Source: an uncultured Granulosicoccaceae bacterium (lineage in GTDB: Bacteria > Pseudomonadota > Gammaproteobacteria > Granulosicoccales > Granulosicoccaceae). Taken from it: DNA of 46,095 nt. Positions 7,899-46,095 of this stretch are shown here, piece after piece. The stretch is taken from positions 1 through 46,095 of the forward strand of contig CALIMV010000129.1 in assembly GCA_938045275.1 (NCBI GenBank), given 5' to 3'. The notes under the pieces are model-generated. The model saw nothing but the letters and a program-made list of their open reading frames with translations, was not told the origin of the DNA and did no database searches. The position numbers and the translations under genes are program-made. Position 1 is the first letter of the stretch; the number at the start of each line of letters is the position of its first letter.

Positions 7899-7988
7899 TA
7901 TGTAGCTCAGTGTTATGTAGCTCAGTGTTATGTAGTTCAGTGCTATGTAGTTCAGTGCTATGTAGCTCACTGCTATGTAATTCAGTAA
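7899..7988. repeat. Six tandem 15-bp repeats in the leader of the GNAT gene
   Basis: The unit is tatgtagctcagtgt. Copies start at 7899, 7914, 7929, 7944, 7959 and 7974; the first two are identical, the next two share two changes, and the last two diverge further, suggesting stepwise duplication. The array begins 18 bp upstream of the TTG start. On the minus strand in the GNAT frame it would read a repeated T/S-E-L-H-N/S pentapeptide, but no start codon precedes it. A copy-number change could alter leader length or expression. Confidence 0.92.
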
Positions 7989-8489
7989 TTTCTTGAGTAT
8001 TTTTGTGTTGTTAGAATCTTCCCATGGATCGCAAGTCTATTGTTAATCAAAATCGAATTGCCTGGGTTTTCAATTGTACCGAGCGTGGAAAGCCAGCGAA
8101 AAAACAATAGGGACTTATTGGCGCTGAAAATACATTGCCTTCTAGTCGAAAGCCTGGTGTATCAACGAAGTTGAATGAAGAAGCGCTAAGGTGACCAAAT
8201 GGCGTTTGTGTCGATTTGTCGGTTTATTGGTATCAGACACAGGTTGCCCTATTGAAAAGCAATTGGAGCTTGTCGAACATACAGGTACGGTTCCTTGCGG
8301 TGAGAATTAGACTTTGAGTGAACATCCAATTGCATCTTCAACTAATGCTCATTGTTAAGCTGCAACGAAACCTAAATTTGCGACCAAGCATGAGTTGTTG
8401 TGCCCGATGAATTTTCGGGCACAACAGTTTATGGTTAAAACAAATGGCCTAAAGTGATCTGGAGAAAGTGGCCATTTGTGTTCGGTTCG
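7989..8489. other. Gene-free stretch between GNAT leader and phoX
   Basis: Only very short open frames are present, such as a 28-codon frame at 8023-8109 starting ATG GAT CGC and a roughly 40-codon frame ending at about 8310; neither has recognisable similarity or a ribosome site. The stretch may hold remnants of a decayed gene. A strong hairpin at 8397-8425 is listed separately. Confidence 0.55.
8397..8425 (-). terminator. Strong hairpin downstream of phoX
   Basis: An 11-bp perfect stem, gttgtgcccga (8397-8407) with tcgggcacaac (8415-8425), and a 7-base loop, 65 bp beyond the phoX stop. No T-run follows, so it may terminate with Rho or protect the mRNA 3' end. Confidence 0.55.
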
Positions 8490-31855: not shown

Positions 31856-33036
31856 TCGTCGCACGCATGAGTCGCGATGGTGTCTGGGCTGGCAAGTGGT
31901 AATCGGGTTTTTGCTGATTTACCACTGACTTCTCGAACCAGCGTAGGAACAAGATAACCCGGCAAGCGCTGCGTTAGTTCAAGATTCAGTTGTTTTGCCA
32001 GTTCATCGGTAACCTGGTAATGCGCTGTTCCAGCCACAGGATCAGTAGCGTGCAAATAATAGGGCAGGACTCCTGCCTGGTAGAGATTCTCGCTCAAGCT
32101 ACTGAGCGTCTCGATGTCGTCGTTGATGCCTTTGAGTAATACGCTTTGATTTAACAATGTAACCGGGCTATTCACCAAACGATTTAAATTTTGCCTAACA
32201 TGGTCATCAATTTCGTTCGGATGATTACAATGCAAAACCAATGCGACATTGCATCGTGCATTAATTAAACGTGAACACAGTGCGTCAGTGAGTCTCTGGG
32301 GAATTACAATAGGGTATCGACTGTGGATACGAACGTGAAGCACATGTTCAATGGATTCGATTTCATCGAGCAAGCGGCTAAACAGTCGATCGTTTACTAA
32401 CAATGGTTCACCACCACTTAAAATGACTTCCTTGATAGTGTCGTCGTTACGAATATAGTTTAAGGACTGATGCCAGTTGCTGGGCGTTAGCCGGTTTTCC
32501 TCATAGGCAAAATATCGCCGAAAACAATATCGACAATTGATCGGGCAACTGATTGCTGCAGTTAGCAGCACACGACCGTGGTACTTATGCACAAGACCAG
32601 GGCAAACGTTGTATTGTTGTTCATTAAGTGGGTCAGTACTGTGACCAGGAATATCATGTTGTTCCTGCTTTAACGGCAGTACTTGTAACAACAACGGATC
32701 ACTGATATCGCCTCTTCGCATGCGTGATACAAATGGCAACGGAACACGCAGCTTAAAACTGTTTTCCGCAACTAAACTCGTGAGTGTTTGAGTATCAAGG
32801 TCAAGCAACATTGCCAGTGATTTGACATCACCAACAGTGTTGGCCGTCACTGTTTGCCAATCCCAAGATGTCGATTGTTGCATTTGTTCAGCGGTAAACA
32901 CCGCATCGGCTGTCATATGCCGAACCACTGGTTGCGAATTGTTCAGCTCGATTGCCGAGGCTGGATTAGAGTCAGATGGTGCGACTGATACAAATTCATC
33001 AATCGCAGTAGCTTCAGGCTGAATGTAATTAGTCAC
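31852..33036 (-). CDS. epmB: EF-P beta-lysylation protein EpmB (lysine 2,3-aminomutase family)
   Basis: Radical-SAM, PLP-dependent enzyme that makes beta-lysine for post-translational modification of elongation factor P. The 4Fe-4S motif CPINCRYCFRRYF (about 158-170), SGGEPL, RIHSRYPIVIPQRLTDAL and LLNQSVLLKGINDD are shared with EpmB, as is the ending with GYLVPTLVREVSGKSAKT. It starts at GTG (33036) overlapping the upstream stop as GTGA. That gives 394 residues, roughly 40-50 more than E. coli EpmB; an internal ATG at 32916 would give the usual length. It is coupled to the M28 gene downstream. Partners epmA and efp are not in the window. Confidence 0.88.
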   Translation of the reverse strand: MTNYIQPEATAIDEFVSVAPSDSNPASAIELNNSQPVVRHMTADAVFTAEQMQQSTSWDWQTVTANTVGDVKSLAMLLDLDTQTLTSLVAENSFKLRVPLPFVSRMRRGDISDPLLLQVLPLKQEQHDIPGHSTDPLNEQQYNVCPGLVHKYHGRVLLTAAISCPINCRYCFRRYFAYEENRLTPSNWHQSLNYIRNDDTIKEVILSGGEPLLVNDRLFSRLLDEIESIEHVLHVRIHSRYPIVIPQRLTDALCSRLINARCNVALVLHCNHPNEIDDHVRQNLNRLVNSPVTLLNQSVLLKGINDDIETLSSLSENLYQAGVLPYYLHATDPVAGTAHYQVTDELAKQLNLELTQRLPGYLVPTLVREVSGKSAKTRLPLASPDTIATHACDE

Positions 33037-34100
33037 ACGTTATCCGACGATTTTTTGCGGCGCCTTGATTTACGAGCTCCGCGTCCGCTAGCTGACCCAC
33101 CCGCTATGCTTAAATCACCTTCCAATTGGGCTCGCGCACCCTGGGAGACCTCGCCTAGCTGTGCGGTGATTTCGTCCAGCTCCGGTGGCGGTGCTGGGGT
33201 CCAGGCATCAATCGCTTCACGCATGGCTTTTACATGTAGCGGGGATGTGCCACAACAGCCGCCTATGATAGACGCGCCTGCGTTGGCGGCCATGGTTGCG
33301 TATTGCGCCATTAACTCCGGTGTCCCGTTGTAAACAATTTCACCGTCGATATACTCAGGAATGCCGCAGTTGGCTTTGGCTACCAGCGCTGGGGTAGCGT
33401 TCTGGGCGCTTTTGGCGGTGCTTAGGTTTTTAATGGCAGCAACCACCTCGCTGGCACCGACACCACAATTTGTTCCCACAGCGGTTATTGGCGTATCAAG
33501 ACTGGTACTGATGCGTATGGCGTCTGCTGCAGTCAAACCCATCATGGTGCGACCATTGGTATCGATGCTAACGGTAAACACAATTGGCAAACCGACGTCA
33601 GCAACACCTTGAACCGCCGCTTCGATTTCCTCTGCTGAAGATATAGTTTCAATCCAGAGTATATCGGCGCCACCTGCCTTGAGTGCCAATGCCTGTTCAT
33701 TGAATGCGGAGGCGGCATCATCAATTGACACAGGCCCGTTCGGCGCCAATATTTCGCCAGTTGGCCCTATTGATCCTGCAATAAGCACATTTTTTGGCGC
33801 ATTTGAAACGACTTCACCGGCAATTTCCGCTGCTCGTCTGTTTAATTCCTCAACTCTATGGCCTGCCTTGTGCAATGCCAATCGGTAGTGAGTACCACCG
33901 AAAGAATTGGTCAAGATGATATCTGAGCCAGCATCAACGAAGGACTGATGCAGTTTGGTAATTCGATCAGGGTGGTCCGTGTTCCATAGCTCTGGAGAAT
34001 CACCCGTTTCTAACCCCATAGCAAATAGATTGGTGCCTGTCGCACCATCGGCGAGCAATACGCGAGACTCTTGCAAAAGTGTTGCTAGTTTGTCGGTCAT
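33033..34100 (-). CDS. Homocysteine S-methyltransferase family protein (BHMT-like)
   Basis: Transfers a methyl group to homocysteine to form methionine; in bacteria with MttB clusters this family often acts as betaine-homocysteine methyltransferase, but the donor cannot be read. ATG at 34100 gives MTDKLATLLQESRVLLADGATGTNLF; a longer frame to 34220 lies over the divergent gene. Zinc ligands are visible: GTNCGVG (one Cys) and GGCCGT (two Cys, about 285-290). The last 25 residues are a basic low-complexity tail (GSASGRGARKSRRRKKSSDNV), resembling tails on methyltransferase-system proteins 2-9 kb away. It is coupled to epmB by a GTGA overlap, and its start is 18 bp from the divergent acyltransferase. 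Confidence 0.88.
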   Translation of the reverse strand: MTDKLATLLQESRVLLADGATGTNLFAMGLETGDSPELWNTDHPDRITKLHQSFVDAGSDIILTNSFGGTHYRLALHKAGHRVEELNRRAAEIAGEVVSNAPKNVLIAGSIGPTGEILAPNGPVSIDDAASAFNEQALALKAGGADILWIETISSAEEIEAAVQGVADVGLPIVFTVSIDTNGRTMMGLTAADAIRISTSLDTPITAVGTNCGVGASEVVAAIKNLSTAKSAQNATPALVAKANCGIPEYIDGEIVYNGTPELMAQYATMAANAGASIIGGCCGTSPLHVKAMREAIDAWTPAPPPELDEITAQLGEVSQGARAQLEGDLSIAGGSASGRGARKSRRRKKSSDNV

Positions 34101-34118
34101 GACTGGGAATGCACCTAA

Positions 34119-35273
34119 GTGAATGAATTGATTGAGCAGAGGCCATTGCAGCTTTCGATTGTAAGCGATACCGAAACATTCGCCGGTATGACGGAAGAGT
34201 GGCGGGTGCTGGGAAAGCAAGCATCAGCAAGTTTTTTCATGAATTGGGAGTGGCATTATACGTGGTGGCAGGTCTATGCGACGCCGAGTGACCGACTTTA
34301 TCTGGTTCGATTTACGCTTGATGACAAACTGGTAGGTTTGCTGCCAATGTATTCGCGTCGACCGAAGTTTGCACTGAAACACAGGCTGATGTTTTTGGGC
34401 ACCGGCGAGCCGGTTGAAGATGAAGTTGCGACTGAATACCTTGATCTGATTTCTCATCCTGATCATCAACAAGAGGTTGCTGACGCTGCGATCGATTGGC
34501 TGTCGAGCTGTAAGCGATGGGGTACGGTTGAATTGCGCTATTTACTCGACGATGCATTGCTGGTGCAAGCGTATCGAGCACGTGCTGAGTTGGTGACAAT
34601 TGAACGTAACGTTGGTAACCGTTACCGGGTTCCGCTTGAACTTAGCGAAGAAGCTCATTTGGAAAACATCAGTAAAAGCCGTAGCAAGCGTATGGAGCGA
34701 AGTCGTCGTGCTTTGGTCAGAGACGGAGGGTTCGAACAAATATCAGTAACGGGTGCTGCCGAGCTTGACAAGGCTTTTCACTACCTGGCTGAGTTGAATC
34801 ATGAGCGACAGGCCCATAAACAACGAAAAAGTGTGTTTGCATCAGATAAATTTAATCAGTTTCATCGGCTTCTGATTCAACTTGTTATTGAGCACGGTGG
34901 TGTAAATATTCACCAATTTAAACTCAAGCATAGCTTGCTTGCTGTAATCTACTGCTTTTATGATAAAAACACGTGCTACTACTATCAAAGCGGATTTTCC
35001 AAACGTGCGGCAAACAAGTATATGCCGCTAACGTTCGCACATTTGGCAGAAATACAACGCAATCGGGGAATGGGTCGTCGCTACTATGATTTTATGCGTG
35101 CCGAACCGCCCAGTTATAAAGAAGATTTTGGTTGCGAAACCACGCCAATGGTGACAACGTTTATATTCCGCTCAAGATGGCATTTGCTTGGTTTCAACAC
35201 CCGTAAAATTGTTCGCAGGAAACTGGTTACGGTCCTTAACACTTTCGGCATCAATCGTAATCTAATGCAATGA
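34119..35273 (+). CDS. GNAT-superfamily acyltransferase, BcsL/CelD-like
   Basis: The 384-residue protein resembles the GNAT_6 (CelD/BcsL) group: early FMNWEWHYTWWQVY and LVGLLPMYSRR, central HLENISKSRSKRMERSRRAL, and a C-terminal GNAT half with YQSGFSKRAANKYMPLTFAHLAEI and YYDFMRAEPPSYKEDFG. Related proteins modify polysaccharides or cell-surface sugars; the acceptor is unknown. GTG at 34119 has GGGA about ten bases upstream; an alternative ATG at 34188 would remove 23 residues. Only 18 bp separate its start from the homocysteine methyltransferase start, so the two promoters must overlap the opposing genes. Confidence 0.8.
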   Translation: MNELIEQRPLQLSIVSDTETFAGMTEEWRVLGKQASASFFMNWEWHYTWWQVYATPSDRLYLVRFTLDDKLVGLLPMYSRRPKFALKHRLMFLGTGEPVEDEVATEYLDLISHPDHQQEVADAAIDWLSSCKRWGTVELRYLLDDALLVQAYRARAELVTIERNVGNRYRVPLELSEEAHLENISKSRSKRMERSRRALVRDGGFEQISVTGAAELDKAFHYLAELNHERQAHKQRKSVFASDKFNQFHRLLIQLVIEHGGVNIHQFKLKHSLLAVIYCFYDKNTCYYYQSGFSKRAANKYMPLTFAHLAEIQRNRGMGRRYYDFMRAEPPSYKEDFGCETTPMVTTFIFRSRWHLLGFNTRKIVRRKLVTVLNTFGINRNLMQ

Positions 35274-35322
35274 TACGCTACTATGCGGCATCCGCTGAAA
35301 AATAGGGAGACTCAGGGATAAT

Positions 35323-35874
35323 ATGGTTTTCGGAATGGGGCGTTTGCCTGAAGCTAATAAAATAGATACGATCTCGGTGCCAGCAACTGTTGGCTGTCTC
35401 GGGCTGGTCGCCTGCCCAGGCGTTAGAGTGCAGCAGACCTCAGGCGTGAATCGAAAACATCTGCACGCTGACATTCAAGCACTAAAGGCATGGGGCGCGT
35501 CTGGTGTTGTCTCGTTTATCGAAGCGCACGAATTCAGAATGAACAATGTCGAAGATATTCCGAATTTACTCAGAGCCGCCGGAATCTGGTGGTTGCACCT
35601 GCCAATTATCGATATGGAAATCACCGACCAGAAATTCGAAGACGAATGGGCAGTAGAAGGTGAACGTATTCGGCATGCGCTACGTATTGGCGAGCGCGTA
35701 GCGCTGCATTGTTACGCAGGTCTGGGCCGCACCGGTATGATCGGTGCGCGAATACTGGTGGAAATGGGTATGGAGCATGAACGTGCTATTGCGGCGGTCA
35801 GAGGACCTAATTCCCGTAGAATTCAAACGAAACGGCAAGCCATGTTTGTACGCGAGATTAAATCGCTGGTTTAA
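35323..35874 (+). CDS. Dual-specificity/tyrosine phosphatase-like protein (CDKN3-like)
   Basis: A 183-residue cysteine phosphatase. The P-loop HCYAGLGRTG (C-x5-R, about 130-139) is intact, with the acid-loop candidate LPIIDMEI (Asp about 98). The N-terminal sequence LGLVACPGVR and LKAWGASGVVSFIE is typical of the CDKN3/dual-specificity group found in bacteria. Substrate unknown; could be phosphoprotein or a phosphosugar. It lies 50 bp after the acyltransferase on the same strand and may share its transcript. It is followed by a 170-bp gap before the methyltransferase gene. Confidence 0.87.
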   Translation: MVFGMGRLPEANKIDTISVPATVGCLGLVACPGVRVQQTSGVNRKHLHADIQALKAWGASGVVSFIEAHEFRMNNVEDIPNLLRAAGIWWLHLPIIDMEITDQKFEDEWAVEGERIRHALRIGERVALHCYAGLGRTGMIGARILVEMGMEHERAIAAVRGPNSRRIQTKRQAMFVREIKSLV

Positions 35875-36045
35875 CTGCCCGTATGCTGTAGTGTCTTTTG
35901 TCTGGGCACGAATCTTTCAGCATTTATTTACGTTGCCAGCCTGTTAAGGGCGCTGTTCACTAGCTGACTGTCGGATGTTGAAACTCGTTACGATGCCGGA
36001 TTGGTCAGACTGGCTACCTCGAAACATCTGGACACCTACACCTAA

Positions 36046-37602
36046 ATGAGTGACGCTCCCAGAAGAAGACGTGGTGGTGGTCGAGCGGCCAAGCGAGCTG
36101 CCAGGCAAAATACCACCGCAAAGTCTGCACCATACATCCAACGCAAAATTCCAATTTTCGAGGTCCTTGACGACGCGGGGCTATCGCTCATTGAGCAAAA
36201 TGCAGAAATAATCTTAAATGAGATAGGCATCGACTTTCGCGATGATGCCGAAGCTTTGCAGATTTGGCGCGAGGCTGGTGCTGATATTCAGGGTGAGCGC
36301 GTGCGTTTTCCGAAGGGGCTGTGTCGACAGCTAATTATGGATTCTGCACCTGAGAGTTTTACGCAACACGCTCGCAATCCAGAAAAAAACGTGGTGATAG
36401 GCGGCAAAAATACTGTCATGGTGCCTGCCTATGGACCACCGTTTGTCAGCGACCTTGATAAGGGACGACGCTATGCAACCATCGAAGATTTTCGCAATTT
36501 CGTCAAGCTAGCCTATATGAGTCCACATTTGCATCACTCTGGTGGAACAGTTTGCGAGCCGGTGGACTTACCCGTTAACAAACGTCACTTCGATATGGTG
36601 TATGCGCATATGCGTTACAGCGATAAGCCGTTTATGGGTTCCGTTACTGCTCCAGAGCGCGCACAAGACACCATCGATATGGCTAAGATCCTGTTTGGTG
36701 ACGATTACTACGACAGTGAAACTGGTGTAGAAAAAACAGTGGTGATCAACCTGATCAATGCCAACTCACCAATGACATTCGATGAAACCATGCTCGGTGC
36801 CGCCAAGGTATATGCCCGCAATAATCAGGCGTGTGTGGTTTCCCCGTTTATTCTCGCTGGTGCTATGTCGCCGGTAACGGTTGCAGGCACTGCCGCACAA
36901 ATTCTCGCTGAAGCAATGGCCGGAATGGCTTTTGTACAACTTGTGCGACCTGGCGCTCCGGTTGTGTTCGGCACTTTTGCCAGCTCTATCTCAATGCAGT
37001 CGGGTGCGCCCACCTTCGGCACACCAGAGCCGGCGTTGGTCATGTACACCTGCGCAGCACTAGCCAGACGCCTGAAAGTGCCGTTTCGAAGTGGCGGTGG
37101 TTTATGTGCATCGAAGTTGCCTGATGCGCAGGCCGCTTTTGAGGCAGCTAATACGTTACAAACAGCTGCGTTGGCTGGTGTTAATTTCATGCTACATACT
37201 GCAGGGTGGCTTGAAGGCGGACTTGTCATGAGCTACGAGAAGTTCGTCATGGATGCAGATCAGGCGGGCATGCTCGGCGTCTTGCTTGGTGGGGTAGACC
37301 TTTCAGTTAGTGGACAGGCTATCGATGCATTGAAAGAAGTTGGGCCGGGTCAACACTTTTTAGGCTGTGAACACACGCAGGCAAATTTTGAGTCAGCTTT
37401 CTTTCGTTCAACCATGGCCGACAATAATTCTTTCGAACAGTGGCAGGCTGAAGGCTCCAAGGATGCGGCACAGCGCGCAAATGAGAGATGGAAGGCCAAT
37501 TTAGAGGGCTATCTGGCACCATCAATTGATGAATCTATTGACAAAGCGCTGTTACAATATATCGAAGAAAGAAAAGGGTCGTTTCCAGACGCCAATTATT
37601 AG
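36046..37602 (+). CDS. MttB-superfamily corrinoid methyltransferase, non-pyrrolysine type
   Basis: Expected to move a methyl group from a quaternary or tertiary amine to the cobalt of a corrinoid protein. The 518-residue sequence matches the trimethylamine methyltransferase family over its length: DAGLSLIEQNAEIILNEIG, HSGGTVCEPVDLPVNKRH, DKPFMGSVTAPERAQD, GGAMSPVTVAGTAAQILAEA, GAPTFGTPEPALV and GGGLCASKLPDAQAA. There is no internal stop codon where true trimethylamine enzymes read pyrrolysine, so the family predicts a quaternary amine such as glycine betaine, carnitine or proline betaine; the substrate is not determined. Residues 5-20 are Arg/Gly/Ala-rich. No convincing ribosome site precedes the ATG. 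The partner corrinoid protein is at 45649. The regulator gene follows by 65 bp. Confidence 0.93.
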   Translation: MSDAPRRRRGGGRAAKRAARQNTTAKSAPYIQRKIPIFEVLDDAGLSLIEQNAEIILNEIGIDFRDDAEALQIWREAGADIQGERVRFPKGLCRQLIMDSAPESFTQHARNPEKNVVIGGKNTVMVPAYGPPFVSDLDKGRRYATIEDFRNFVKLAYMSPHLHHSGGTVCEPVDLPVNKRHFDMVYAHMRYSDKPFMGSVTAPERAQDTIDMAKILFGDDYYDSETGVEKTVVINLINANSPMTFDETMLGAAKVYARNNQACVVSPFILAGAMSPVTVAGTAAQILAEAMAGMAFVQLVRPGAPVVFGTFASSISMQSGAPTFGTPEPALVMYTCAALARRLKVPFRSGGGLCASKLPDAQAAFEAANTLQTAALAGVNFMLHTAGWLEGGLVMSYEKFVMDADQAGMLGVLLGGVDLSVSGQAIDALKEVGPGQHFLGCEHTQANFESAFFRSTMADNNSFEQWQAEGSKDAAQRANERWKANLEGYLAPSIDESIDKALLQYIEERKGSFPDANY

Positions 37603-37667
37603 CGAGTACTCGCGAAACACATGCGAGTGCGCCTGTGCGTGCCCGCAACGAGTTAGAAGAGTCGCCC

Positions 37668-38675
37668 ATGATTGGTCAAGCAAACGCCACAGCGCATATC
37701 GGATTCTATCTGGTTCCGCAATTTTCAATGATCGCATTTGCCAGTGCAATTGAACCGCTGCGAATGGCAAACCAGCTCACAGGATCCCAGCATTACCGCT
37801 GGAGCCTGATCAGCAGCGATGGGCAGCCGGTAACATGCAGTAACGGTATTACCATGGCGCCGCATTTCGATACCAAAACCCGGGAACGCTTTGATGCGGT
37901 ATTTGTCTGTAGCGGCGTTAACATTCATCGGCTCGATGACGAACCCGGCATCCAGTGGCTTAAGCAACTCGACAAAGCTGGCACAGTCCTTGGGGCAGTT
38001 TGTACTGGCACTCATTTGTTGGCCAGAGCGGAGTTGCTCAACGATCGGCGGTGCACAATTCATTGGGAAAACCTTGCCAGTACAAGAGAACAATTTCCGC
38101 AGTTGGTTATCTCACCTGAGCTTTTTGAAATAGACAAAGACAGATATACCTGTGCCGGCGGTACAGCGCCTATGGATATGTTGCTGTGCGAGATCCGTAA
38201 AAAACACGGCGCTGACTTGGCAACACGCATCTCAGAACAATTTATGTGTGAACGAATTCGCGATCAGAATGACCGTCAGCGCGTGCCATTAACTCAGCGC
38301 ATTGGGGCAAGCCAGCCGAAGTTGGCTGAAGCTGTTTCGCTGATGGAAGCTAACATAGAAGAACCCATGACGCTTGATGAACTGTCGCATCATGTTGGCC
38401 TTTCGAGACGACAACTTGAAAGGCTGTTTCAGCGCTACTTGCAGTGCGTACCAACACGCTATTACCTTGAACTGCGACTAGAGCGGGCACGTCAGCTGTT
38501 GTTGCAGACCAGTATGCCCATTGTTGATATCGCCTTGGCGTGTGGTTTTATTTCTGCACCGCATTTTTCCAAATGCTACAGAGATACGTTTTCGATACCA
38601 CCCAGGGATGAACGCCGCAGAGCTGCCGGATTGCTTGACGATAGTGTGGTTACTAAGGCGACGCGCGTTAGTTAG
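37668..38675 (+). CDS. GlxA/GbdR-type AraC-family transcriptional regulator
   Basis: A 335-residue activator. ATG at 37668 is chosen because AGAAGAG precedes it by six bases; a GTG at 37635 is upstream. The N-terminal DJ-1/PfpI-like sensor domain (about 1-170) reads IGFYLVPQFSMIAFASAIEPLRMANQLTG and GAVCTGTHLLA, very like GbdR, CdhR and related regulators of glycine betaine and carnitine breakdown. The C-terminal AraC domain (about 210-310) has two helix-turn-helix parts, LDELSHHVGLSRRQLERLFQRY and IVDIALACGFISAPHFSKCYRD. It follows the MttB gene on the same strand, so it probably senses the methylated amine and controls this gene and the divergent operon. Confidence 0.88.
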   Translation: MIGQANATAHIGFYLVPQFSMIAFASAIEPLRMANQLTGSQHYRWSLISSDGQPVTCSNGITMAPHFDTKTRERFDAVFVCSGVNIHRLDDEPGIQWLKQLDKAGTVLGAVCTGTHLLARAELLNDRRCTIHWENLASTREQFPQLVISPELFEIDKDRYTCAGGTAPMDMLLCEIRKKHGADLATRISEQFMCERIRDQNDRQRVPLTQRIGASQPKLAEAVSLMEANIEEPMTLDELSHHVGLSRRQLERLFQRYLQCVPTRYYLELRLERARQLLLQTSMPIVDIALACGFISAPHFSKCYRDTFSIPPRDERRRAAGLLDDSVVTKATRVS

Positions 38676-38677
38676 AA

Positions 38678-38741
38678 GCCATCTCCACACATGCCTTGTC
38701 TGAGCGCACAATGGCTCGGCGCCTCCTCATGTTGAGATGGC
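38678..38741. terminator. Bidirectional stem-loop between convergent genes
   Basis: An 8-bp perfect stem gccatctc (38678-38685)/gagatggc (38734-38741), extended by cacatg/catgt with a small internal mismatch, encloses a second partial hairpin (gccttgt/acaatggc). It lies directly after the regulator stop and just before the end of the convergent DUF5658 gene. No T-run. Confidence 0.45.
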
Positions 38742-38753
38742 GTCTAGGTTTGT

Positions 38754-39278
38754 TTAGAGCAAACTGAGTAAGCCAAGCTCATACACGATTAATCCGCAAT
38801 AAATGCCAACCGCCCCGGCCAGTATTGAGCGTGCGCGAAATCGTTTGAATAGCATCACATTGCACATGGCAACCAGTAGTACTGCGGACGTGCCTGTGAG
38901 TAACATTTTTACGCCAACGAAAAGTGCAACGTTGATCTGTAAAAGCCAGTTCATAAACGGGTTGACTTCTGTTCCGCCATGGGCAATGAGCGTGAGGGTA
39001 AAAATTGAATCCATTACCGATAAAATCATTAAGCCAACGGCCAGAAATCCTACACCGCTTTCGAACCTGTCCAGTATGGGAAATTGACGATCAGAACTTC
39101 GTCGGCCATTAAATCGGCGCGGTGACACGAAGGCGTGAGCTAAAGTCCTCAAGCCATAGGTACGCCGCTCCGCGTTTTCGCGGCGATTGATTCCATCCCA
39201 TTGTGTTAACTGGTGAAGAGATCGGCCCGCTATTGAATCTGATTGGGCTTTGTGTTGGCCGTGCAGTTTAGTAGTCAT
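38754..39278 (-). CDS. DUF5658-like membrane protein
   Basis: About 174 residues from the ATG at 39278; a GTG at 39314 would add twelve. A basic hydrophilic N-terminus (about 1-85) with RRENAERRTYGLR and SPRRFNGRRSSDRQF precedes three membrane helices (about 88-108, 122-147, 150-172). VGLMILSVMDSIFTLTLIAHGGTEVNPFMNWLL (asp, then G-x-EVNP) is the DUF5658 hallmark. Function unknown. The soluble N-terminus with many arginines could bind nucleic acid or phospholipid, but that is a guess. It is convergent with the regulator gene. Confidence 0.75.
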   Translation of the reverse strand: MTTKLHGQHKAQSDSIAGRSLHQLTQWDGINRRENAERRTYGLRTLAHAFVSPRRFNGRRSSDRQFPILDRFESGVGFLAVGLMILSVMDSIFTLTLIAHGGTEVNPFMNWLLQINVALFVGVKMLLTGTSAVLLVAMCNVMLFKRFRARSILAGAVGIYCGLIVYELGLLSLL

Positions 39279-39529
39279 ACCGGCAATGTTAATCGCTGCA
39301 GGTTGATTGAGCACGCTCGCATGTGCAGCTGTGTGCCCAATGTCCCGAGTTACTTTACAAGTTTGTTAACCGAATCGATGCTTGGTGTATTTAATTGTCA
39401 TTGGTTCACAGTTGATCACCGTGGCCAATATTGTGACAAAGATAACAAGATTGTCTGTTTAAGTGAGTGATTTTTGCTAGCCTTACGGGATATTAAATTT
39501 TTTAGCACATCACCGACCAGGACAACTCC

Positions 39530-39970
39530 ATGCTAAAAGCAATCAAAGACTCATCGCCAGCCGTTTTGCTGGTGCGAATACTCATTGCTGCCTTGGTGGT
39601 ATTCGGTTCTTACAATCCGACTGGAACATCGGTATTTCACTGGGTCACCAATAGTTTGAACGGTGATATGCCTGATGCGTGGGTAGTGTTAGGGGCTATT
39701 GTGACCATCTTGATCAATGTGGTTTTACTGATCGCTGCCTGGAAAGCGCTTGGGAAAATTGGCATCTTCATCGTACTCATTTTGTTTGCAGCGCTCGTCT
39801 ATCTGGCACTACAGGAAGGCGTAGTTTCAACCAGCAACAATGATTCACTACAGTGGCTCGCGCTCACTTTGTATAGCGTCTTTTTAGGTATTGGATTATC
39901 GGGCGCTATTCTTTGGCGACGTGCAACAGGGCAAGTTGTCACTGACGAGTCAGACGATTTGCACGAATAG
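39530..39970 (+). CDS. Small four-helix membrane protein, DUF6524-like
   Basis: A 146-residue inner-membrane protein with four hydrophobic segments (about 10-30, 55-75, 78-98, 110-132). The sequence FGSYNPTGTSVFHWV between helices 1 and 2 is what suggests the DUF6524 family; the match is from memory and not certain. AGGA lies eight bases before the ATG. It is divergent from the DUF5658 gene across 215-250 bp and convergent with the activase gene. Role unknown. Confidence 0.65.
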   Translation: MLKAIKDSSPAVLLVRILIAALVVFGSYNPTGTSVFHWVTNSLNGDMPDAWVVLGAIVTILINVVLLIAAWKALGKIGIFIVLILFAALVYLALQEGVVSTSNNDSLQWLALTLYSVFLGIGLSGAILWRRATGQVVTDESDDLHE

Positions 39971-39996
39971 CCGTTTGGGTTTGAAAATTAATTGTG

Positions 39997-40032
39997 TCAG
40001 CAAAGCCGCGTCGCCAGCAAGTGCTTTGCTGA
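39997..40032. terminator. Bidirectional stem-loop terminator
   Basis: A perfect 10-bp stem tcagcaaagc (39997-40006)/gctttgctga (40023-40032) lies between the convergent DUF6524-like and RamA-like genes. It has no clear T-run on either side, but its location suits a shared transcription end for the methyl-transfer operon. Confidence 0.6.
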
Positions 40033-40088
40033 GTTAACTTGTACTGTCGACAATGGCCGCAATCGTATCTACTAGATTTACCTCGCTT

Positions 40089-42131
40089 TCAAGACCGGGA
40101 AGCTCTACGCGCGCGGCGTCGGGCACTACGACCACGCTGCACACCTGCTGTATCCGATTGCGCAACCGTTGGCTCCGGTAAGTTAACCACCTTGGCTAAT
40201 TCTGTGAACCTTGCGCTTTTGTGCGGGAAGGCCATGGCTTCGACAAAGTGTTCCTGAAATTTTGGTTCCACCGCTGTTTCTATTTTTTCAACGCCACGAA
40301 CAATTTCTTCTATATGTGAGCGTGATTCGCGGTCGAGAAGGGCGATGCGAGCGCCAGTGCCGGCCGCGTTGCCTGCCGAAGCAACCGAATCGAGTATGCA
40401 ATCAGGGATGAGACCGATGATCATCGCGTACTTTACATCGATGTGTGAACCAAATGCACCGGCAAGCCGAATACGATCGACCTTGTCGATATTGAGATGA
40501 TCCATTAGTAAACGAACACCGGCGTACAACGCTGCTTTGGCAAGTTGGATTTGACGAACATCGTTCTGGGTTATGCGAATGGTCACATCGCCTTCGTGCA
40601 ACAGATAAGAGAAGGTGCGGCCATCTTCGGCAATGCGCGGATTTTGAGCGGCCAAATGCCCCTGAATAACACCATCAGTATCAATAATGCCTGTCAGAAA
40701 CATCTCAGCAATAACTTCTATGATGCCGGAGCCACATATTCCGGTTACCGGTAGCGTGTCGAGCTGTTCCAAAAAGTCAGGTTCGTTTGACCAGGTTTCG
40801 CAGCCTATGACGCTAAAGCGTGGTTCGAGTGTGTCCGGGTCTATGCGTACGCGTTCTATGGCGCCGGGCGCCGCACGTTGACCACCACTGATTTGTGCAC
40901 CTTCAAATGCCGGTCCTGTAGGGCTTGAACAGGCCAGCAGCCGATTGGCGTTTCCCAGCACAATTTCGGCGTTGGTACCAACATCAACAAGCAGCGTAAT
41001 GTCAGTCAATTTGTTGGGTTGTTCACACAGTATTACGCCTGCGGTGTCTGCGCCTACATGGCCGGCAATGCACGGCAGAAAATACGCCTGTGCTTTTGGA
41101 TGTGCTTTGATGTCCATACTGGCAGCATCAACGTTTAATGCTTCGTCGGAGGCCAAAGCAAACGGCGCACCACCGAGTTCTATAGGGTCAATACCGAGCA
41201 ACAGATGGTGCATAACCGGGTTGGCGACAAACGTAAGCTCAATGATATCGGTGACATCAATTGCCGCTTCAGTGGCGACATCGATCAGTAATTGGTTGAT
41301 AGCCTCACGTACAGCGGCAGTCATTTCCACGTCGCCGCCCGGGTTCATCATGACGTAAGAAACGCGGCTCATTAAGTCTTCACCGAATCGAATTTGCGGG
41401 TTCATCGCACCGCTACTGCCTAATACCTCGCCGGTGATCAGGTCGCATAAATGCGCGGCTATGGTCGTTGAACCAACGTCAATCGCCACCCCGCAAATGC
41501 GTTCTTTGTATCCTGACCACACGCCTAATATACGACCATCGGTGTGGACAGCGGCAGTGACTTGCCAGTTTTCTTTTCGCAGAACCGCTTGTAGCGTATG
41601 CAGCAAGGAAAGATCGGTGCTCAAGCCGGTAAGATTCCATTCTGCTTCCAGGGCTTGCTTTAATCGACGCAAGTCGCCGGATGGGTCGTGCATATCCGGT
41701 TGCTGTACTTCGACAACGTGCAAACTGATTGCAGGGTTGAGTGTGATATTAGCGTGTTCAGCTTCTTTTCTGATGACTTGACGATGCACCTGACTTTCAG
41801 GAGGTACATCGACCACCATATCGCCAAGAACATTTGTCTGGCAGCCAAGGCGTCTATTGGGTGCAAAGGCACCATTGATGCGTTGATAACGCGCTTCGAC
41901 TTTCGTAGATTCGCTTTGGTGTTCTGCTCGAGACACAATGTTGTGTTTCGGAAATTCACCTTCCGGACATTGCACCTGGCAGCGCCCACATAATCCACGA
42001 CCACCGCAAACCGTATCGAGATCTACACCGAGTGCTCGAGCTGCGGAGAGAATTGAAGTGCCGATCGGGAAATGACCACGTTTACCGCTCGGAGTAAAAA
42101 CTACTAAGGCTTCGTCTGTTGTCGTGCTCAT
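40089..42131 (-). CDS. RamA-like corrinoid activation protein (2Fe-2S ferredoxin + ASKHA/DUF4445)
   Basis: Predicted to re-reduce inactive Co(II) corrinoid protein to Co(I) in an ATP-dependent manner. ATG at 42131 is preferred over TTG at 42143, giving 680 residues. The N-terminal 2Fe-2S domain carries VCGGRGLCGRCQVQCPEG (about 40-57). A middle region follows, then the actin-like ATPase domain from about 210: GVAIDVGSTTIAAHLCD, LLVDVGTNAEIVLG, FEGAQISGGQRAAPGAIE, GICGSGIIEVIAE and RIRLAGAFGSH. It is the last gene of the operon. The C-terminal 18 residues are Arg-rich (GRSARRRARRASRS), a feature shared with its cluster partners. Note the domain uses a 2Fe-2S in place of the 4Fe-4S of archaeal RamA. 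Confidence 0.9.
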   Translation of the reverse strand: MSTTTDEALVVFTPSGKRGHFPIGTSILSAARALGVDLDTVCGGRGLCGRCQVQCPEGEFPKHNIVSRAEHQSESTKVEARYQRINGAFAPNRRLGCQTNVLGDMVVDVPPESQVHRQVIRKEAEHANITLNPAISLHVVEVQQPDMHDPSGDLRRLKQALEAEWNLTGLSTDLSLLHTLQAVLRKENWQVTAAVHTDGRILGVWSGYKERICGVAIDVGSTTIAAHLCDLITGEVLGSSGAMNPQIRFGEDLMSRVSYVMMNPGGDVEMTAAVREAINQLLIDVATEAAIDVTDIIELTFVANPVMHHLLLGIDPIELGGAPFALASDEALNVDAASMDIKAHPKAQAYFLPCIAGHVGADTAGVILCEQPNKLTDITLLVDVGTNAEIVLGNANRLLACSSPTGPAFEGAQISGGQRAAPGAIERVRIDPDTLEPRFSVIGCETWSNEPDFLEQLDTLPVTGICGSGIIEVIAEMFLTGIIDTDGVIQGHLAAQNPRIAEDGRTFSYLLHEGDVTIRITQNDVRQIQLAKAALYAGVRLLMDHLNIDKVDRIRLAGAFGSHIDVKYAMIIGLIPDCILDSVASAGNAAGTGARIALLDRESRSHIEEIVRGVEKIETAVEPKFQEHFVEAMAFPHKSARFTELAKVVNLPEPTVAQSDTAGVQRGRSARRRARRASRS

Positions 42132-42191
42132 TGCAATACTCAATGCTTGCGTAGTTCGTGCATCAACGATCTGGTTGATTCACCAAGAACT

Positions 42192-43094
42192 TTATTTTCT
42201 ACGCCGTCTGGTGGTTCGACGGCCGCGTTCACCGGCTTCACCCGCAACGGGTGCTTCCCGATATTTTTTAATCCAGTTCAGACAGTCAGCATCGTTGCCC
42301 ATGAGCACATCGGCCGCCATCACTGAGCGCATGACTTCTTCGTGGATTGGGTTGGTTATAGCTGATGTCATTCCGGCGCCCATAGCCATGCTTAAAAAAG
42401 CACCGTTGATGCCGTTTCTTTGTGGTAGACCAAAACTAATGTTGGATGCGCCACAGGTGGTGTTACATTTTAGTTCGTTGCGAATGCGCCCAAGAATATC
42501 AAACACCTGTCGTCCAGCGTAACGCATAGCACCAATTGGCATTACCAATGGGTCTACCACTATGTCACTTGCAGGAATGCCATGGTCGGCAGCACGTTCA
42601 ACAATTTTCTTGGCAACATCGAAGCGTACGTTTGGGTCTTCCGAAATGCCGGTTTCGTCGTTTGAAATGGCAACAACAGCTGCGCCGTATTTAGCAACAA
42701 GTGGCAGTACTCGTTCAAGGTTTTCATCTTCACCGGTGACTGAGTTAACCAGGGCTTTACCCTGATACACTTCCAGGCCTGCTTCTAGTGCTTCTATGAT
42801 CGATGAGTCAATTGAGATGGGTACATCGGTGATTGATTGCACGAGTTGAATTGCTTTGGCTAACAGCGCAGGCTCATCGGCCAGTGGAATGCCTGCATTA
42901 ACATCGAGCATTTGTGCGCCAGCGGCTACCTGCGCCAGTGCATCGGCTTCAACTCGGCTAAAGTCTCCGGCTTTCATTTCTTCAGCGAGGATTTTACGGC
43001 CCGTTGGATTTATACGTTCTCCAATGATAGTAAATGCGCGATCATCTCCAATGATATGTTCGCGTGTGGCTGAGCTTACAATGGTGTCAGTCAT
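42192..43094 (-). CDS. Tetrahydrofolate:corrinoid methyltransferase (pterin-binding, MtgA/MeTr-like)
   Basis: Moves the methyl group between the corrinoid protein and tetrahydrofolate; here probably toward folate. The 300-residue protein is a pterin-binding TIM barrel: TIIGERINPTGRK (about 22-34), MLDVNAGIPLADEP (about 61-74), PISIDSSIIEALEAGLEVY (about 96-114), VAISNDETGI, and GASNISFGLPQR (about 215-226), all conserved in methyltetrahydrofolate:corrinoid enzymes. The ATG lies within the MetF-like stop region (8-base overlap), so translation is coupled. The C-terminal 17 residues are AGEAGERGRRTTRRRRK, an unusual basic tail. The RamA-like gene follows by 60 bp. Confidence 0.92.
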   Translation of the reverse strand: MTDTIVSSATREHIIGDDRAFTIIGERINPTGRKILAEEMKAGDFSRVEADALAQVAAGAQMLDVNAGIPLADEPALLAKAIQLVQSITDVPISIDSSIIEALEAGLEVYQGKALVNSVTGEDENLERVLPLVAKYGAAVVAISNDETGISEDPNVRFDVAKKIVERAADHGIPASDIVVDPLVMPIGAMRYAGRQVFDILGRIRNELKCNTTCGASNISFGLPQRNGINGAFLSMAMGAGMTSAITNPIHEEVMRSVMAADVLMGNDADCLNWIKKYREAPVAGEAGERGRRTTRRRRK

Positions 43095-44121
43095 GGTATT
43101 TGTCTAATTGAGTTTGAATATTGGCGTCCCCTTCGAAGAGTTTCGGGTGCCAGGGAGTGCGGTCGTTTAATACACCAGAACGCATGACAATGTCAGGTAC
43201 ATTGTGCTCTTGTCGATACGCCATAATGTGTACACCGCTCACACCTTCGATTTCTTTTATTTCCTGAATTAAATCAACACACAGGTTTACACCTTCTTTC
43301 TTTTGATCGTCAGCACCGCTAAGCCGTTTGATTACGGAATCGGGTATGTGCACACCAGGTACATTACTGCGAATCCATTCTGCGGTTCGCGCCGATGCGA
43401 GTGGACCAACACCAATTAGCAAGAAGACTTTCTCATCCAAACCCATATCTCGGATGGCTTGCATGTAAGTGCGCAGCCGGTCAATGTCATAGCAATACTG
43501 TGTTTGAATGAATTGCGCGCCTGCTTCGATTTTCTTTGCCAGTCGCAATGGACGCCAGTCGAACGGTTCTACAAACGGGTTGGCGGCAGCACCCAAAAAA
43601 ACACGCGGAGGATGATCTATTTTTCGACCACTTTGAAATACACTTTCTTCGCGCATAGTGCGAGCAATGTTTAGCAGTGACATGCAATCGAGGTCGAATA
43701 CCGGCTTAGCATCCGGGTGATCGCCTGTTTGTACGCCATCACCGGACAAGCACAACATATTGCACACACCCATTGCAGCACCGCCCAGAATATCGCCTTG
43801 AATGGCGATACGATTTTTATCACGACAAGATATTTGCATGATCAACGCATACCCCAAACGGGTTAGCAGAGCACACACAGCCAGGCTGCCCATATGACAA
43901 TGTGCACCACTGCCATCGGTTGCATTAATAGCATCAACGTAACCGTCGAATATGGCCGCACGCTCGTATACCGCGTTAGGGTCGGCTGAATCTGGCGGCG
44001 CCAGCTCACTGGTAACGGCAAAGTGGCCATCGCGCAGTATGCGTTCCAAACGGCCCGGAGAGCTGTGGCCTTTGCGTATAGGCAAGGGGTAACCGGGGAT
44101 AGGCTCGTCGGTGTAAATCAT
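43087..44121 (-). CDS. Methylenetetrahydrofolate reductase, MetF-like
   Basis: Interconverts methyl- and methylene-tetrahydrofolate; in this setting it would oxidise the methyl group taken from the amine. ATG at 44121 overlaps the MetV-like stop as ATGA; an earlier in-frame start at 44205 runs through the MetV gene. The 344-residue barrel shows FAVTSELAPPDSADPNAVYERA (with the catalytic Glu-like E), INATDGSGAHCHMGSLAVCALL, GDGVQTGDHPDAKPVFDLD, QTQYCYDIDRLR and KVFLLIGVGPLAS. It is not the normal MetF of methionine synthesis but the type paired with a MetV-like protein in acetogens and methylamine clusters. It likely forms a complex with the upstream gene product. Confidence 0.9.
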   Translation of the reverse strand: MIYTDEPIPGYPLPIRKGHSSPGRLERILRDGHFAVTSELAPPDSADPNAVYERAAIFDGYVDAINATDGSGAHCHMGSLAVCALLTRLGYALIMQISCRDKNRIAIQGDILGGAAMGVCNMLCLSGDGVQTGDHPDAKPVFDLDCMSLLNIARTMREESVFQSGRKIDHPPRVFLGAAANPFVEPFDWRPLRLAKKIEAGAQFIQTQYCYDIDRLRTYMQAIRDMGLDEKVFLLIGVGPLASARTAEWIRSNVPGVHIPDSVIKRLSGADDQKKEGVNLCVDLIQEIKEIEGVSGVHIMAYRQEHNVPDIVMRSGVLNDRTPWHPKLFEGDANIQTQLDKYHD

Positions 44122-44618
44122 GATGAGCTTATGTTGCTGGCAGTGTCGGTTGGGTTTTTCGCTGCACTTTCTTCTGCACGTATACGTCGAACTTCCCGCA
44201 ACCACGACGAAGAACCGATGAGCCGATGATCGATAGCAACTTGCACAATAGACATATCACCACCGTTTTTCATGCGTTGACTGCCGGTCCAGGCTTCCAC
44301 CCATACGCACCGCATTTCTGGTTTGACTTCGCAATAACCGTCGATGCGAACGCCACCGCACGGGCCATTACGAATCGATTTTGGACAATTCATCGGGCAA
44401 GACATGCCCGTTTTACTCAGTGCGCATTGACCGCACATTTGACAATCGAACAATACACCTTTTACGGTTTTTTCAACTGCTGCAACGGGTCGCTCCAGTC
44501 GGTCATAGCCTATGCGTTCGAACACAGGCGCACAGGCTACCAGCGATTTTTCGAGAAAGGCGTACAGCACCTCCATCATTCTTGCGCGTTTTATCGACCA
44601 AAGTCTGACTTTGTACAT
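44118..44618 (-). CDS. MetV-like cysteine-rich protein (MTHFR C-terminal domain family)
   Basis: A 166-residue partner protein. The cysteine cluster (about 60-105) reads CQMCGQCALSKTGMSCPMNCPK, then NGPCGGVRIDGYCEVKPEMRCVW: at least nine cysteines, the pattern of the MTHFR_C domain (PF12225). In acetogens the MetV protein binds zinc or an iron-sulfur group and is needed for the MetF-type reductase. The stop overlaps the MetF-like start by four bases. The separate metV-metF arrangement points to a reductase driven by, or delivering to, an electron carrier not identified here. The start is a plain ATG with a weak ribosome site. Confidence 0.86.
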   Translation of the reverse strand: MYKVRLWSIKRARMMEVLYAFLEKSLVACAPVFERIGYDRLERPVAAVEKTVKGVLFDCQMCGQCALSKTGMSCPMNCPKSIRNGPCGGVRIDGYCEVKPEMRCVWVEAWTGSQRMKNGGDMSIVQVAIDHRLIGSSSWLREVRRIRAEESAAKNPTDTASNISSS

Positions 44619-44655
44619 AGTCGTCTTATTTTCGTTCCGATGCGATACAGAACGC

Positions 44656-44970
44656 TTAACTTACTGGTTTAGCGTCTGCTTCAACGCCTTTGGCTTTAAC
44701 CACAGCCTCCAGATGTTCGTCGCTAAAAGCGGCTTCGAGTTCTGCAGCGGCTTTATTCGCTTCAGTTTGCAAATCATCGCTGCACGGTTCACGAATGCGT
44801 TTCCAATCTTCCATGTATGCATCACTTGTACCTTTGCCGGCACGCATTGCTGCACGGTCAATGCCTTGTTGAAAGCGGTCTGAGAGGGCAACTTTTGCTG
44901 TTTTACGACCCTTTTTTGCAGTGACTTGTGACGGAATGTCGCGCCAGTAAATTTTGATGAGTTCTGCCAT
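44656..44970 (-). CDS. PF13769-like small protein ('virulence factor' family) of the methyl-transfer operon
   Basis: A 104-residue basic/acidic protein: a short beta-rich start (MAELIKIYWRDIPSQV), a lysine-rich stretch (TAKKGRKTAKVAL), DRFQQGIDRAAMRAGKG and a helical acidic end (EANKAAAELEAAFSDEHLEAVV). The Pfam name comes from old annotation and has no virulence content that I know of; I recall these proteins beside MttB-type clusters in alphaproteobacteria. It lies between DUF1638 and the MetV-like gene, so a role in the methyl-transfer complex is inferred from context only. Confidence 0.75.
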   Translation of the reverse strand: MAELIKIYWRDIPSQVTAKKGRKTAKVALSDRFQQGIDRAAMRAGKGTSDAYMEDWKRIREPCSDDLQTEANKAAAELEAAFSDEHLEAVVKAKGVEADAKPVS

Positions 44971-45030
44971 GGGAATTCCAATAATTTAATCTAACTCGAC
45001 TTTATCGAGCTTCAGTAAATCGCGTTTAAT

Positions 45031-45627
45031 CTATTCAGCTACGACCCGAATATCCTGCAGCGCATGTTGTAAAGGAAGCAGCCCGGTGTAGTGAACTTCG
45101 AGCGGCAGATTGATGGCATCGGCCGCCTTTTCAGCCTGCTCCAAACGTTCTTTATTTTCAGTTTGAGCCAGGTAGAGCATGCGGGTGTAATTGCCAAAAT
45201 ACATGTCTCTGAGTTCCGGGTGTTTGTTTATGCCCAGTGTTTCCAGAATAAGCCGATCAAAATGCCAGGCCAGGTAATCGGTCAGAAAAAACGTACCGAG
45301 TTCTTCTTCAGCCAATGCCGAGAATGTGTTTTGTCCGGTAAAGAAAGCATAGCAATGTGCACCGGGCAATCGCTCAACCTGATGACGTTGCAATACGGTA
45401 TCGAGATGTCCGCCAGTGCCGCAATCACCATAGGCGACCAGCATGTGATCGTACTGTTTTTTGTTTTGAATGATCTTTTGCTCAACACCAGGAGCAATTT
45501 TATCAGGCGTGTTGTGCCATTCTGCTGGAAGACACTGCACGTCTATATGCGACCATTGATTCGCTTTTAGTACATCGACTAGCTCATGCGCAAGAGCGCC
45601 GCAGGCAATTAGTAGTGTGCGACTCAT
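45031..45627 (-). CDS. DUF1638 protein of the methyl-transfer operon
   Basis: A 198-residue protein. LLIACGALAHELVDVLKANQW at the start, YGDCGTGGHLDTVL (about 83-96) with a potential cysteine, and EELGTFFLTDYLAWHFD (about 127-143) match DUF1638, a family that repeatedly accompanies corrinoid methyltransferases in bacteria and methanogens. Its function is not known; a corrinoid-loading, metal-handling or chaperone-like role is a guess. It follows the corrinoid-protein gene by 21 bp in the same direction and precedes the PF13769 gene. Confidence 0.85.
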   Translation of the reverse strand: MSRTLLIACGALAHELVDVLKANQWSHIDVQCLPAEWHNTPDKIAPGVEQKIIQNKKQYDHMLVAYGDCGTGGHLDTVLQRHQVERLPGAHCYAFFTGQNTFSALAEEELGTFFLTDYLAWHFDRLILETLGINKHPELRDMYFGNYTRMLYLAQTENKERLEQAEKAADAINLPLEVHYTGLLPLQHALQDIRVVAE

Positions 45628-45648
45628 GCTGGTGTTTTCAGTGGCCCG

Positions 45649-46095
45649 CTAGCTCGCCCGGGCTTGTCGTCGTTCAGCAATCAGAGACTTTGCTGTTTCA
45701 ACTGCAACCGCGGCATCACGGCAATAGGCATCTGCGCCGACCGCTTCACCGAACTCTTCATTTAGCGGAGCACCACCAACCAGAACAATAAAATCGTCTC
45801 GCATGCCTTGTTCCTGCAAGGTGTCTATGACGACTTTCATGTACGGCATGGTAGTAGTGAGCAGGGCAGACATACCCAAAATCTCTGGTTTATGTTCTTC
45901 CAATGCGGCTATGTAGTCTTCAACCGGGTTATTGATGCCTAAGTCGATTACTTCAAAACCGGCACCTTCGAGCATCATGCCAACGAGGTTTTTGCCAATG
46001 TCGTGTATGTCGCCTTTAACCGTACCGATGACAACCTTGCCGATGGGTGGTGCGCCGGTTTCAGCCAGTAGCGGGCGTAAAATCGCCATGCCACC
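45649..46095 (-). CDS. Corrinoid (methylcobamide)-binding protein, MttC/MtgC-like (partial)
   Basis: The C-terminal 148 or so residues are in the window; the gene continues past the right edge, and the missing part should be the helical cap domain of about 80 residues. The cobalamin-binding motif KGDIHDIGKNLV (D-x-H-x-x-G, His the lower cobalt ligand) is intact, with GMSALLTTTMPYM (S-x-L/T) and VLVGGAPLNEEFGEAVGADAYCRDA downstream. This is the methyl carrier that receives the group from the MttB-family enzyme (36046) and passes it to the pterin enzyme (42192). It is the first gene seen of the operon; its promoter is out of view. The C-terminus is mildly basic (IAERRQARAS). Confidence 0.93.
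   Translation of the reverse strand, partial: GGMAILRPLLAETGAPPIGKVVIGTVKGDIHDIGKNLVGMMLEGAGFEVIDLGINNPVEDYIAALEEHKPEILGMSALLTTTMPYMKVVIDTLQEQGMRDDFIVLVGGAPLNEEFGEAVGADAYCRDAAVAVETAKSLIAERRQARAS

Follow-up and report, generated by a model that had tools for sequence, protein, structure and literature searches.

Corrinoid-dependent demethylation of quaternary amines is already known from aerobic Pseudomonadota. In the aerobic model organism Ruegeria pomeroyi, mutants showed that both methionine synthesis and growth on glycine betaine require MtgC and MtgD, and proteomics showed that the MtgB homologues, MetF2, RamA and DUF1638 rise on N-osmolytes (PMC12478193; this paper, PMC5764234, PMC8604678 and PMC9238374 are cited from parts of their texts). 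According to the same source, mtgC has homologues in the Alpha-, Delta- and Gammaproteobacteria, genomes have up to seven open reading frames (ORFs) with an MtgB domain, and MetH is absent from 108 of 156 genomes (~70%). Members of the MttB family take different quaternary amines (PMC12478193; PMC8604678), and one of them, the MtgB of Desulfitobacterium hafniense, is PDB entry 2qne (PMC9842639). Phaeobacter inhibens has a split B12-dependent methionine synthase, which a RamA-like and a DUF1638 protein probably reactivate; mutant fitness in aerobically grown cells ties both to B12 reactivation, and the authors of that study made no specific proposal for DUF1638 (PMC5764234). The stretch considered here (the window) is the whole of contig CALIMV010000129.1 (46,095 bp), from the genome (5.75 Mb in 499 contigs, 82% complete) of an uncultured Granulosicoccaceae bacterium of the Granulosicoccus type. 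It carries a cluster of corrinoid methyltransferase genes that is very probably an MtgBCD/MtgE system of the kind found in these aerobic Pseudomonadota, with glycine betaine as the most likely substrate and under the control of a GbdR-like regulator.

How would such a system work in this organism? MttB, in the role of MtgB, would demethylate a quaternary amine, most likely glycine betaine, and load the methyl group onto the Co(I) of MtgC, from which MtgD would pass it to tetrahydrofolate (THF). MetF2 and MetV would oxidize the methyl-THF to methylene-THF, feeding one-carbon (C1) oxidation and biosynthesis with neither formaldehyde nor an oxygenase involved. Cobalamin that has slipped to Co(II) would be re-reduced by the RamA-like activase (2Fe-2S, ATP) and DUF1638, and the cycle would therefore survive in oxygen. 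Flow in reverse, from MtgD through MtgC to MtgE, would make methionine, PF13769 would act in the demethylation branch only, and the GbdR-like regulator would control mttB and the mtgC operon via a shared direct repeat. All families that an earlier sequence-only reading had named at 33033–46095 were found in their places by Pfam or NCBIfam. The route it had drawn is supported as well: in an apparent aerobe, non-pyrrolysine MttB, corrinoid and pterin proteins would carry methyl groups to folate, and a RamA-type protein would reactivate the corrinoid. The novelty it implied is another matter, since MtgBCDE, MetF2, RamA and DUF1638 have already been shown in aerobic R. pomeroyi (PMC12478193). The supposition that corrinoid amine demethylation was unreported in an aerobe is rejected by PMC12478193 and PMC5764234, and the central surprise of that reading had thus been published. 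In outline its pathway holds, and most of it was in print; the link to methionine synthesis had been missed.

Table 1. Features of the corrinoid methyltransferase cluster, in window coordinates
Feature	Position	Strand	Evidence
mtgE-type homocysteine S-methyltransferase module	33033..34100	-	PF02574 224.2 bits; NF005718 461.6, cut-off 338; ORF open to 34220
Candidate AraC-type operator GGCG-N17-GTCG before mttB	35949..35973	+	7/8 positions of genus repeat
mttB/mtgB-like non-pyrrolysine quaternary amine:corrinoid methyltransferase	36046..37602	+	PF06253 756.7 bits
GbdR-like AraC-family regulator	37635..38675	+	NF052371 463.2 bits, cut-off 480; 32 bp 3' of mttB
ramA-like (RACo/DUF4445) corrinoid reductive activase, N-terminal 2Fe-2S domain	40089..42143	-	PF14574, PF17651, PF17650, PF00111
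mtgD, methylcorrinoid:tetrahydrofolate methyltransferase	42192..43094	-	NF005719 367.8 bits, cut-off 259; Pterin_bind 105.3
metF2, methylene-THF reductase homologue	43087..44121	-	PF02219 (MTHFR) 113.1 bits
metV, PF12225 partner of MetF2	44118..44618	-	PF12225 90.1 bits
PF13769 small protein	44656..44970	-	PF13769 76.7 bits
DUF1638 protein, putative corrinoid reactivation partner	45031..45627	-	PF07796 96.4 bits
mtgC corrinoid protein, 5' end missing	45649..46095	-	PF02310 (B12-binding) 96.7 bits

On the corrected strands, mttB and gbdR are transcribed from the plus strand, and a run of seven genes, together with the mtgE-type gene, from the minus strand. Read 5' to 3', the run is mtgC-DUF1638-PF13769-metV-metF2-mtgD-ramA, with the mtgE-type gene outside it; metV and metF2 overlap by 4 bp and metF2 and mtgD by 8 bp, and the run is predicted to be one operon, its genes presumably being co-transcribed. 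Two starts given in the sequence-only reading have been moved: as read from the sequence, that of the S-methyl_trans gene is most likely at 34100 instead of 34220, and that of metF2 at 44121 instead of 44205. The full seven-gene order is kept in 11 of the 20 genus regions fetched (one of these starts inside DUF1638, and its adjoining stretch has mtgC ahead); in the other nine, the run is incomplete or lies outside the fetched stretch. Such conservation within the genus shows that the run is not due to chance. Among 80 named loci that surround close relatives of mttB, many of which were fetched with short flanks, PF13769 and DUF1638 were each found in 32, MtgC in 37, MtgD in 36, RamA in 34 and the MetV and MetF2 pair in 22. 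Beyond the genus, the run is carried by records with the names Halomonas lysinitropha (L067), Pseudomonas sp. (L030) and marine gamma proteobacterium HTCC2148 (L082). A dual-specificity-phosphatase-like protein (window 35323–35874) is found beside mttB in all 20 genus regions.

Because the contig ends there, mtgC lacks its 5' end. The B12 domain is present, as is the sequence DIHDIG, which we take to be the DxHxxG cobalamin motif, and the truncated protein scored 158.0 bits against the MtgC model NF047996, whose cut-off is 370. Fuller MtgC proteins are found in genus relatives and in C486, a contig of the same bin, which holds the 5' portion of an almost identical mtgC (7509–8148, L121). The overlap between C486 and the window is not exact, and the bin may therefore combine two closely related strains. 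An enoyl-CoA-hydratase-type gene stands 5' of mtgC in the three relatives that were read (Pfam-confirmed in L128), and a similar ORF is carried by C486; mtgC is therefore probably the head of the operon.

What does MttB demethylate? It is a 518-aa ORF without an in-frame stop, and it scored 266 bits against the pyrrolysine MttB model TIGR02369, for which the cut-off is 525, bearing out its earlier assignment to the non-pyrrolysine type. The closest solved chains are 4yyc (793.5 bits), 2qne (415.9 bits) and 9yce (412.8 bits), the last of which is named glycine betaine methyltransferase. Of the 23 other genus members that were searched, 20 have the gene at 76–88% identity, which makes 21 of 24 with its own genome. 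The pathway might be right and the substrate different, in that this MttB serves carnitine, proline betaine, gamma-butyrobetaine, choline or an algal osmolyte and leaves glycine betaine to a paralogue. There are seven MttB matches in the genome (two cut by contig ends), known family members take different amines (PMC12478193; PMC8604678), and 4yyc carries only the name "putative trimethylamine methyltransferase", all of which speaks for this alternative; it is nevertheless rather doubtful, given that a GbdR-like regulator adjoins mttB and that this copy is so widespread in the genus, always at 76% identity or more, as would be expected if it served the commonest osmolyte. One of the paralogues, on contig C52 (3854–7137, L125), is followed by the choline dehydrogenase BetA (TIGR01810, 766 bits, cut-off 732), and another, on C45 (3780–7768, L126), lies directly 3' of an FAD/GCV_T gene of the dimethylglycine/sarcosine dehydrogenase type. 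The sequence-only reading had left other demethylation routes for checking. For the oxygenase route, GbcB had no match over the cut-off of 500 bits in 23 genomes, including 15 genus members (G000–G014, the first being the genome of the window), and GbcA was not searched for; GbcB-like matches below the cut-off, at 366 bits in G012 and 356 bits in G008, indicate that the route may exist in these two.

A direct repeat links mttB to the mtgC operon. In 18 of 20 genus loci, GTCG-N17-GTCG (a 21-bp period) stands upstream of mttB, in line in the alignment. Upstream of mtgC, the repeat is found in all ten genomes counted, as GTCG-N17-GTCG in three and GTCG-N18-GTCG in seven, 102–151 bp before the start (L117, with a negative start, was left out of the count). 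Shuffled mtgC upstream pieces gave a mean of 0.05 of 10 per spacing, with a maximum of 2, and the background of N17 or N18 repeats in genus-locus pieces of 320 bp was 55 in 3332, true sites included. The fetched stretches of six contigs of the genome (C486 and five with MttB paralogues) hold two copies, one before mtgC and one inside an ORF (L125:3593). Across 539 kb, the 17-spaced form occurred 43 times versus 22.4 in shuffles, and it is thus no genome-wide marker. A period of 21–22 bp suits a dimer of the AraC type, which makes shared GbdR-like control likely. The repeat is a candidate operator, from which the GbdR-like protein putatively controls both mttB and the mtgC operon.

The same corrinoid set might also make methionine. 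The S-methyl_trans protein, called BHMT-like in the sequence-only reading, scored 140.8 bits against a 5-methyl-THF-homocysteine methyltransferase chain versus 63.1 bits against the best BHMT chain, in an alignment that begins at residue 45 of the chain. It passes the NF005718 cut-off, while the ranking of solved structures favors methionine synthase, and the gene is better read as mtgE. This ranking, in which methionine synthases are closest, speaks against a human-type BHMT (residues were not compared). Could the cluster then be mainly a split methionine synthase, with demethylation secondary? MtgC, MtgD, RamA, DUF1638 and MtgE are the five gene types shown to serve methionine synthesis in Phaeobacter (PMC5764234), and 23 of the 24 genus members have an MtgE-type match. 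This is nonetheless improbable: the genome has its own MetH, MetF2 and MetV are part of the predicted operon, mttB and gbdR lie beside it, the same repeat precedes mttB and mtgC, mtgE is outside the run, and genomes that keep MtgD without MttB have no PF13769.

The distribution of MetH bears on how far the genus depends on such an enzyme. Full-length MetH over the cut-off is present in 14 of 24 genus members, including the genome of the window (C83, 1739.9 bits), is split over two contigs in G001, and is absent from nine (G002, G006, G009, G010, G011, G013, G015, G018 and G022), whose completeness is 63–100%, with five at 94% or more. All nine have MtgE-type matches. No MetE of canonical strength (E<1e-140 in outgroups) was found in the 24 genomes; the best MetE-like ORFs, in five genomes, are 354–374 aa long (374 aa in the genome of the window), with E values from 1e-35 to 6e-42. 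Members without MetH thus depend on the split enzyme, on the MetE-like protein or on supplied methionine. The absence of MetH, which is typical of the MtgBCDE system without defining it, is not seen in the genome of the window, and methionine synthesis by this set is therefore not essential here. Genus members with and without MetH provide a natural contrast.

The small PF13769 protein, named "Virulence_fact" in Pfam, follows the demethylation branch. An even sample of 348 Pseudomonadota genomes was used, with a minimum completeness of 90 requested and the genome of the window added at 82%. PF13769 was found in 42 genomes, and MttB in 43, namely the same 42 and G124, where the match covers 73 of 500 positions (a fragment). 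MtgD was over its cut-off in 43, the 42 and G139, and DUF1638 was present in 54, the 42 and 12 more (weak and partial in G067, G073 and G109). G139 has MtgD, RamA, MtgC and DUF1638 and lacks MttB and PF13769; it has no second, MetH-type pterin match. In its genus, g150, MttB and PF13769 are each present in none of ten genomes, and MtgD is over the cut-off in nine. The other 29 of the 39 genomes drawn from the family of G139 all have MttB, and 26 have PF13769; the three that do not (G392, G413 and G417) also lack a match to MtgD. Among MtgD-bearing genomes of the family, PF13769 is thus present in 26 of 26 with MttB versus 0 of 9 in g150, a comparison that is uncorrected for kinship and, g150 being one genus, probably reflects one event (G396, in which MtgD is split over two contigs with each piece below the cut-off, was counted as MtgD-bearing). 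Neither of two simpler descriptions holds: PF13769 does not merely follow DUF1638, which occurs without it in 12 further genomes, nor MtgD, which G139 and eight genus mates keep without it. PF13769 tracks MttB, not the split methionine synthase, and we propose it as an accessory factor specific to demethylation.

What might PF13769 do? Of 30 loci in the phylum sample, examined over about 1.5 kb, 18 have MtgD near PF13769, nine have MetV/MetF2 without MtgD, one has MtgC/DUF1638 alone and two have none of these. PF13769 may be a partner of MetF2, since it adjoins MetV/MetF2 in some genomes and a divergent, weakly MTHFR-like protein in L148; on the other hand, in the family of G139 it lies directly beside MtgD in all six fetched loci, next to MtgD and RamA, at most 90 bp from MtgD and with no gene between. 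In an alignment of 24 sequences, W9, R10, D11, P13, Q15, F33, W56, L87 and G95 are invariant, and there is no invariant Cys or His, which disfavors a metal or Fe-S role. The structure is predicted with confidence and gave no convincing match among solved structures. Tentatively, PF13769 may well be a dedicated subunit or chaperone of MttB/MtgC/MtgD demethylation in aerobic Pseudomonadota, needed for transfer from amine to folate and dispensable for the reverse, methionine-making flow, in which case it would set the forward flow through one B12 enzyme apart from the reverse flow. If so, the distribution predicts that a mutant would lose growth on glycine betaine and would not become a methionine auxotroph.

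For the RamA-like protein, the RACo middle and C-terminal domains gave 157.1 and 311.6 bits, accompanied by Fer2, and the protein scored 327.6 bits against the solved chain 3zyy, presumably RACo. In the DUF1638 protein, the invariant residues in an alignment of 25 sequences include C9, H38, C69, H91, C92 and D117, a set of Cys, His and Asp that would suit metal or cobalt chemistry. By analogy to P. inhibens, DUF1638 would be a corrinoid reactivation partner (PMC5764234). The sequence-only reading had left open how Co(I) is kept active in oxygen, and the mutant fitness data on RamA-like and DUF1638 proteins in Phaeobacter answer this in part (PMC5764234). DUF1638 is also found in another type of locus (L188/G062, L170/G081 and L186/G133), beside a URO-D-like ORF (Pfam-confirmed in L188 only) and a weak corrinoid-like match (30–34% identity), in genomes without PF13769 or MttB; a sensor-like ORF was also seen by eye beside it in L188 and L186. 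DUF1638 may be a general partner of corrinoid methyltransferases.

MetV and MetF2 have a distribution of their own. They were found together in all 22 named loci, of the 80 looked at, that hold either MetV or a window-type MetF2. In the phylum sample, PF12225 is present in 19 genomes (18 over the cut-off), 15 of which are among the 42 with PF13769; MetV is thus not a constant part of the system. Four genomes (G082, G203, G319 and G335) have PF12225 without MttB or PF13769. In one of these, G203, a MetV-MetF2-type pair (46 and 54% identity) lies beside a corrinoid-domain match (L207), and the genome lacks MttB, PF13769 and DUF1638, so that the pair is not confined to this system. In L148 (G250, 1778–2674), a protein that resembles MTHFR only distantly (19.9 bits, gathering score 24) is found between PF13769 and MtgD, an apparent replacement of the methyl-THF oxidizing enzyme MetV/MetF2.

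MetV-like and RACo-like proteins have their role in acetogens, from which related enzyme classes are known, and in the window MetV (PF12225) adjoins MetF, with a 4-bp overlap, as in the acetogen MetVF reductase. Such resemblances could point to an anaerobic or micro-oxic, acetogen-like C1 system for oxygen-poor niches, such as biofilms. This is most unlikely, however, since these gene types also function in the aerobic model R. pomeroyi and in P. inhibens grown with oxygen (PMC12478193, PMC5764234), and the run also occurs in the Halomonas, Pseudomonas and HTCC2148 records. General scans of part of the ORFs gave no Rnf or Hdr family, no search having been aimed at these.

Several points weigh against an MtgBCD/MtgE system with glycine betaine as substrate, GbdR-like control and a demethylation role for PF13769. 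MttB paralogues of other organisms vary in substrate, which makes glycine betaine a guess for this copy, and the GbcB-like matches below the cut-off in G012 and G008 mean that some genus members may have an oxygenase route. The GbdR match is below its cut-off. The window copy before mttB, GGCG-N17-GTCG, has one mismatch, the nearest relatives (L101 and L102) have no exact copy, and the mtgC repeat of this genome sits on C486 (L121:7369), outside the window. The bin is only 82% complete, mtgC is truncated, the genome keeps both full-length MetH and the 374-aa MetE-like ORF, and the conserved phosphatase-like neighbor of mttB has no place in the model. For PF13769, presence and absence cannot by themselves show function, and no mutant data were found in the open-licence literature. 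The domain, moreover, is not restricted to this pathway, as judged from what we take to be a CvfC-type use elsewhere and from a family search that brings in Bacillus subtilis. Away from the cluster, an IS110-type transposase lies at window 3721–4830 (PF01548, PF02371).

Granulosicoccus reportedly outnumbers every other bacterium on the bull kelp N. luetkeana, genes for B12 synthesis are reported from kelp Granulosicoccus, and the type species is "obligately aerobic" according to the title of a reference (PMC9238374). The present cluster would place a B12-dependent osmolyte demethylation route in this genus. That placement, the repeat shared by mttB and mtgC and the link between PF13769 and MttB were not found in the open-licence literature, which suggests that they are new.

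How does the locus compare with the described systems? With R. pomeroyi DSS-3 it shares the pfam06253 MtgB, MtgC, MtgD, MetF2, RamA, DUF1638, MtgE and the presence of several MtgB copies (PMC12478193). Unlike in that organism, as described in the parts of the paper cited, the genes form one predicted seven-gene operon, MetF2 is accompanied by a PF12225 MetV, MetH coexists with the system and PF13769 is part of the run; the main text of PMC12478193 makes no mention of pfam13769, virulence, metV or pfam12225. P. inhibens has the same separate homocysteine, pterin and B12 modules, with RamA-like and DUF1638 proteins, and the window exceeds this set by MttB, MetF2/MetV, PF13769 and the GbdR-like regulator (PMC5764234). 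The MtgABC system of D. hafniense likewise combines an MttB-superfamily methyltransferase with corrinoid and pterin proteins (PMC12478193), but D. hafniense is an anaerobe, and its MtgB (2qne, 415.9 bits) is far more distant from the window MttB than 4yyc is (793.5 bits). Pyrrolysine MttB (PDB 7xcl) belongs to the same superfamily, but it matches the window protein, with its uninterrupted reading frame, at merely 122.4 bits.

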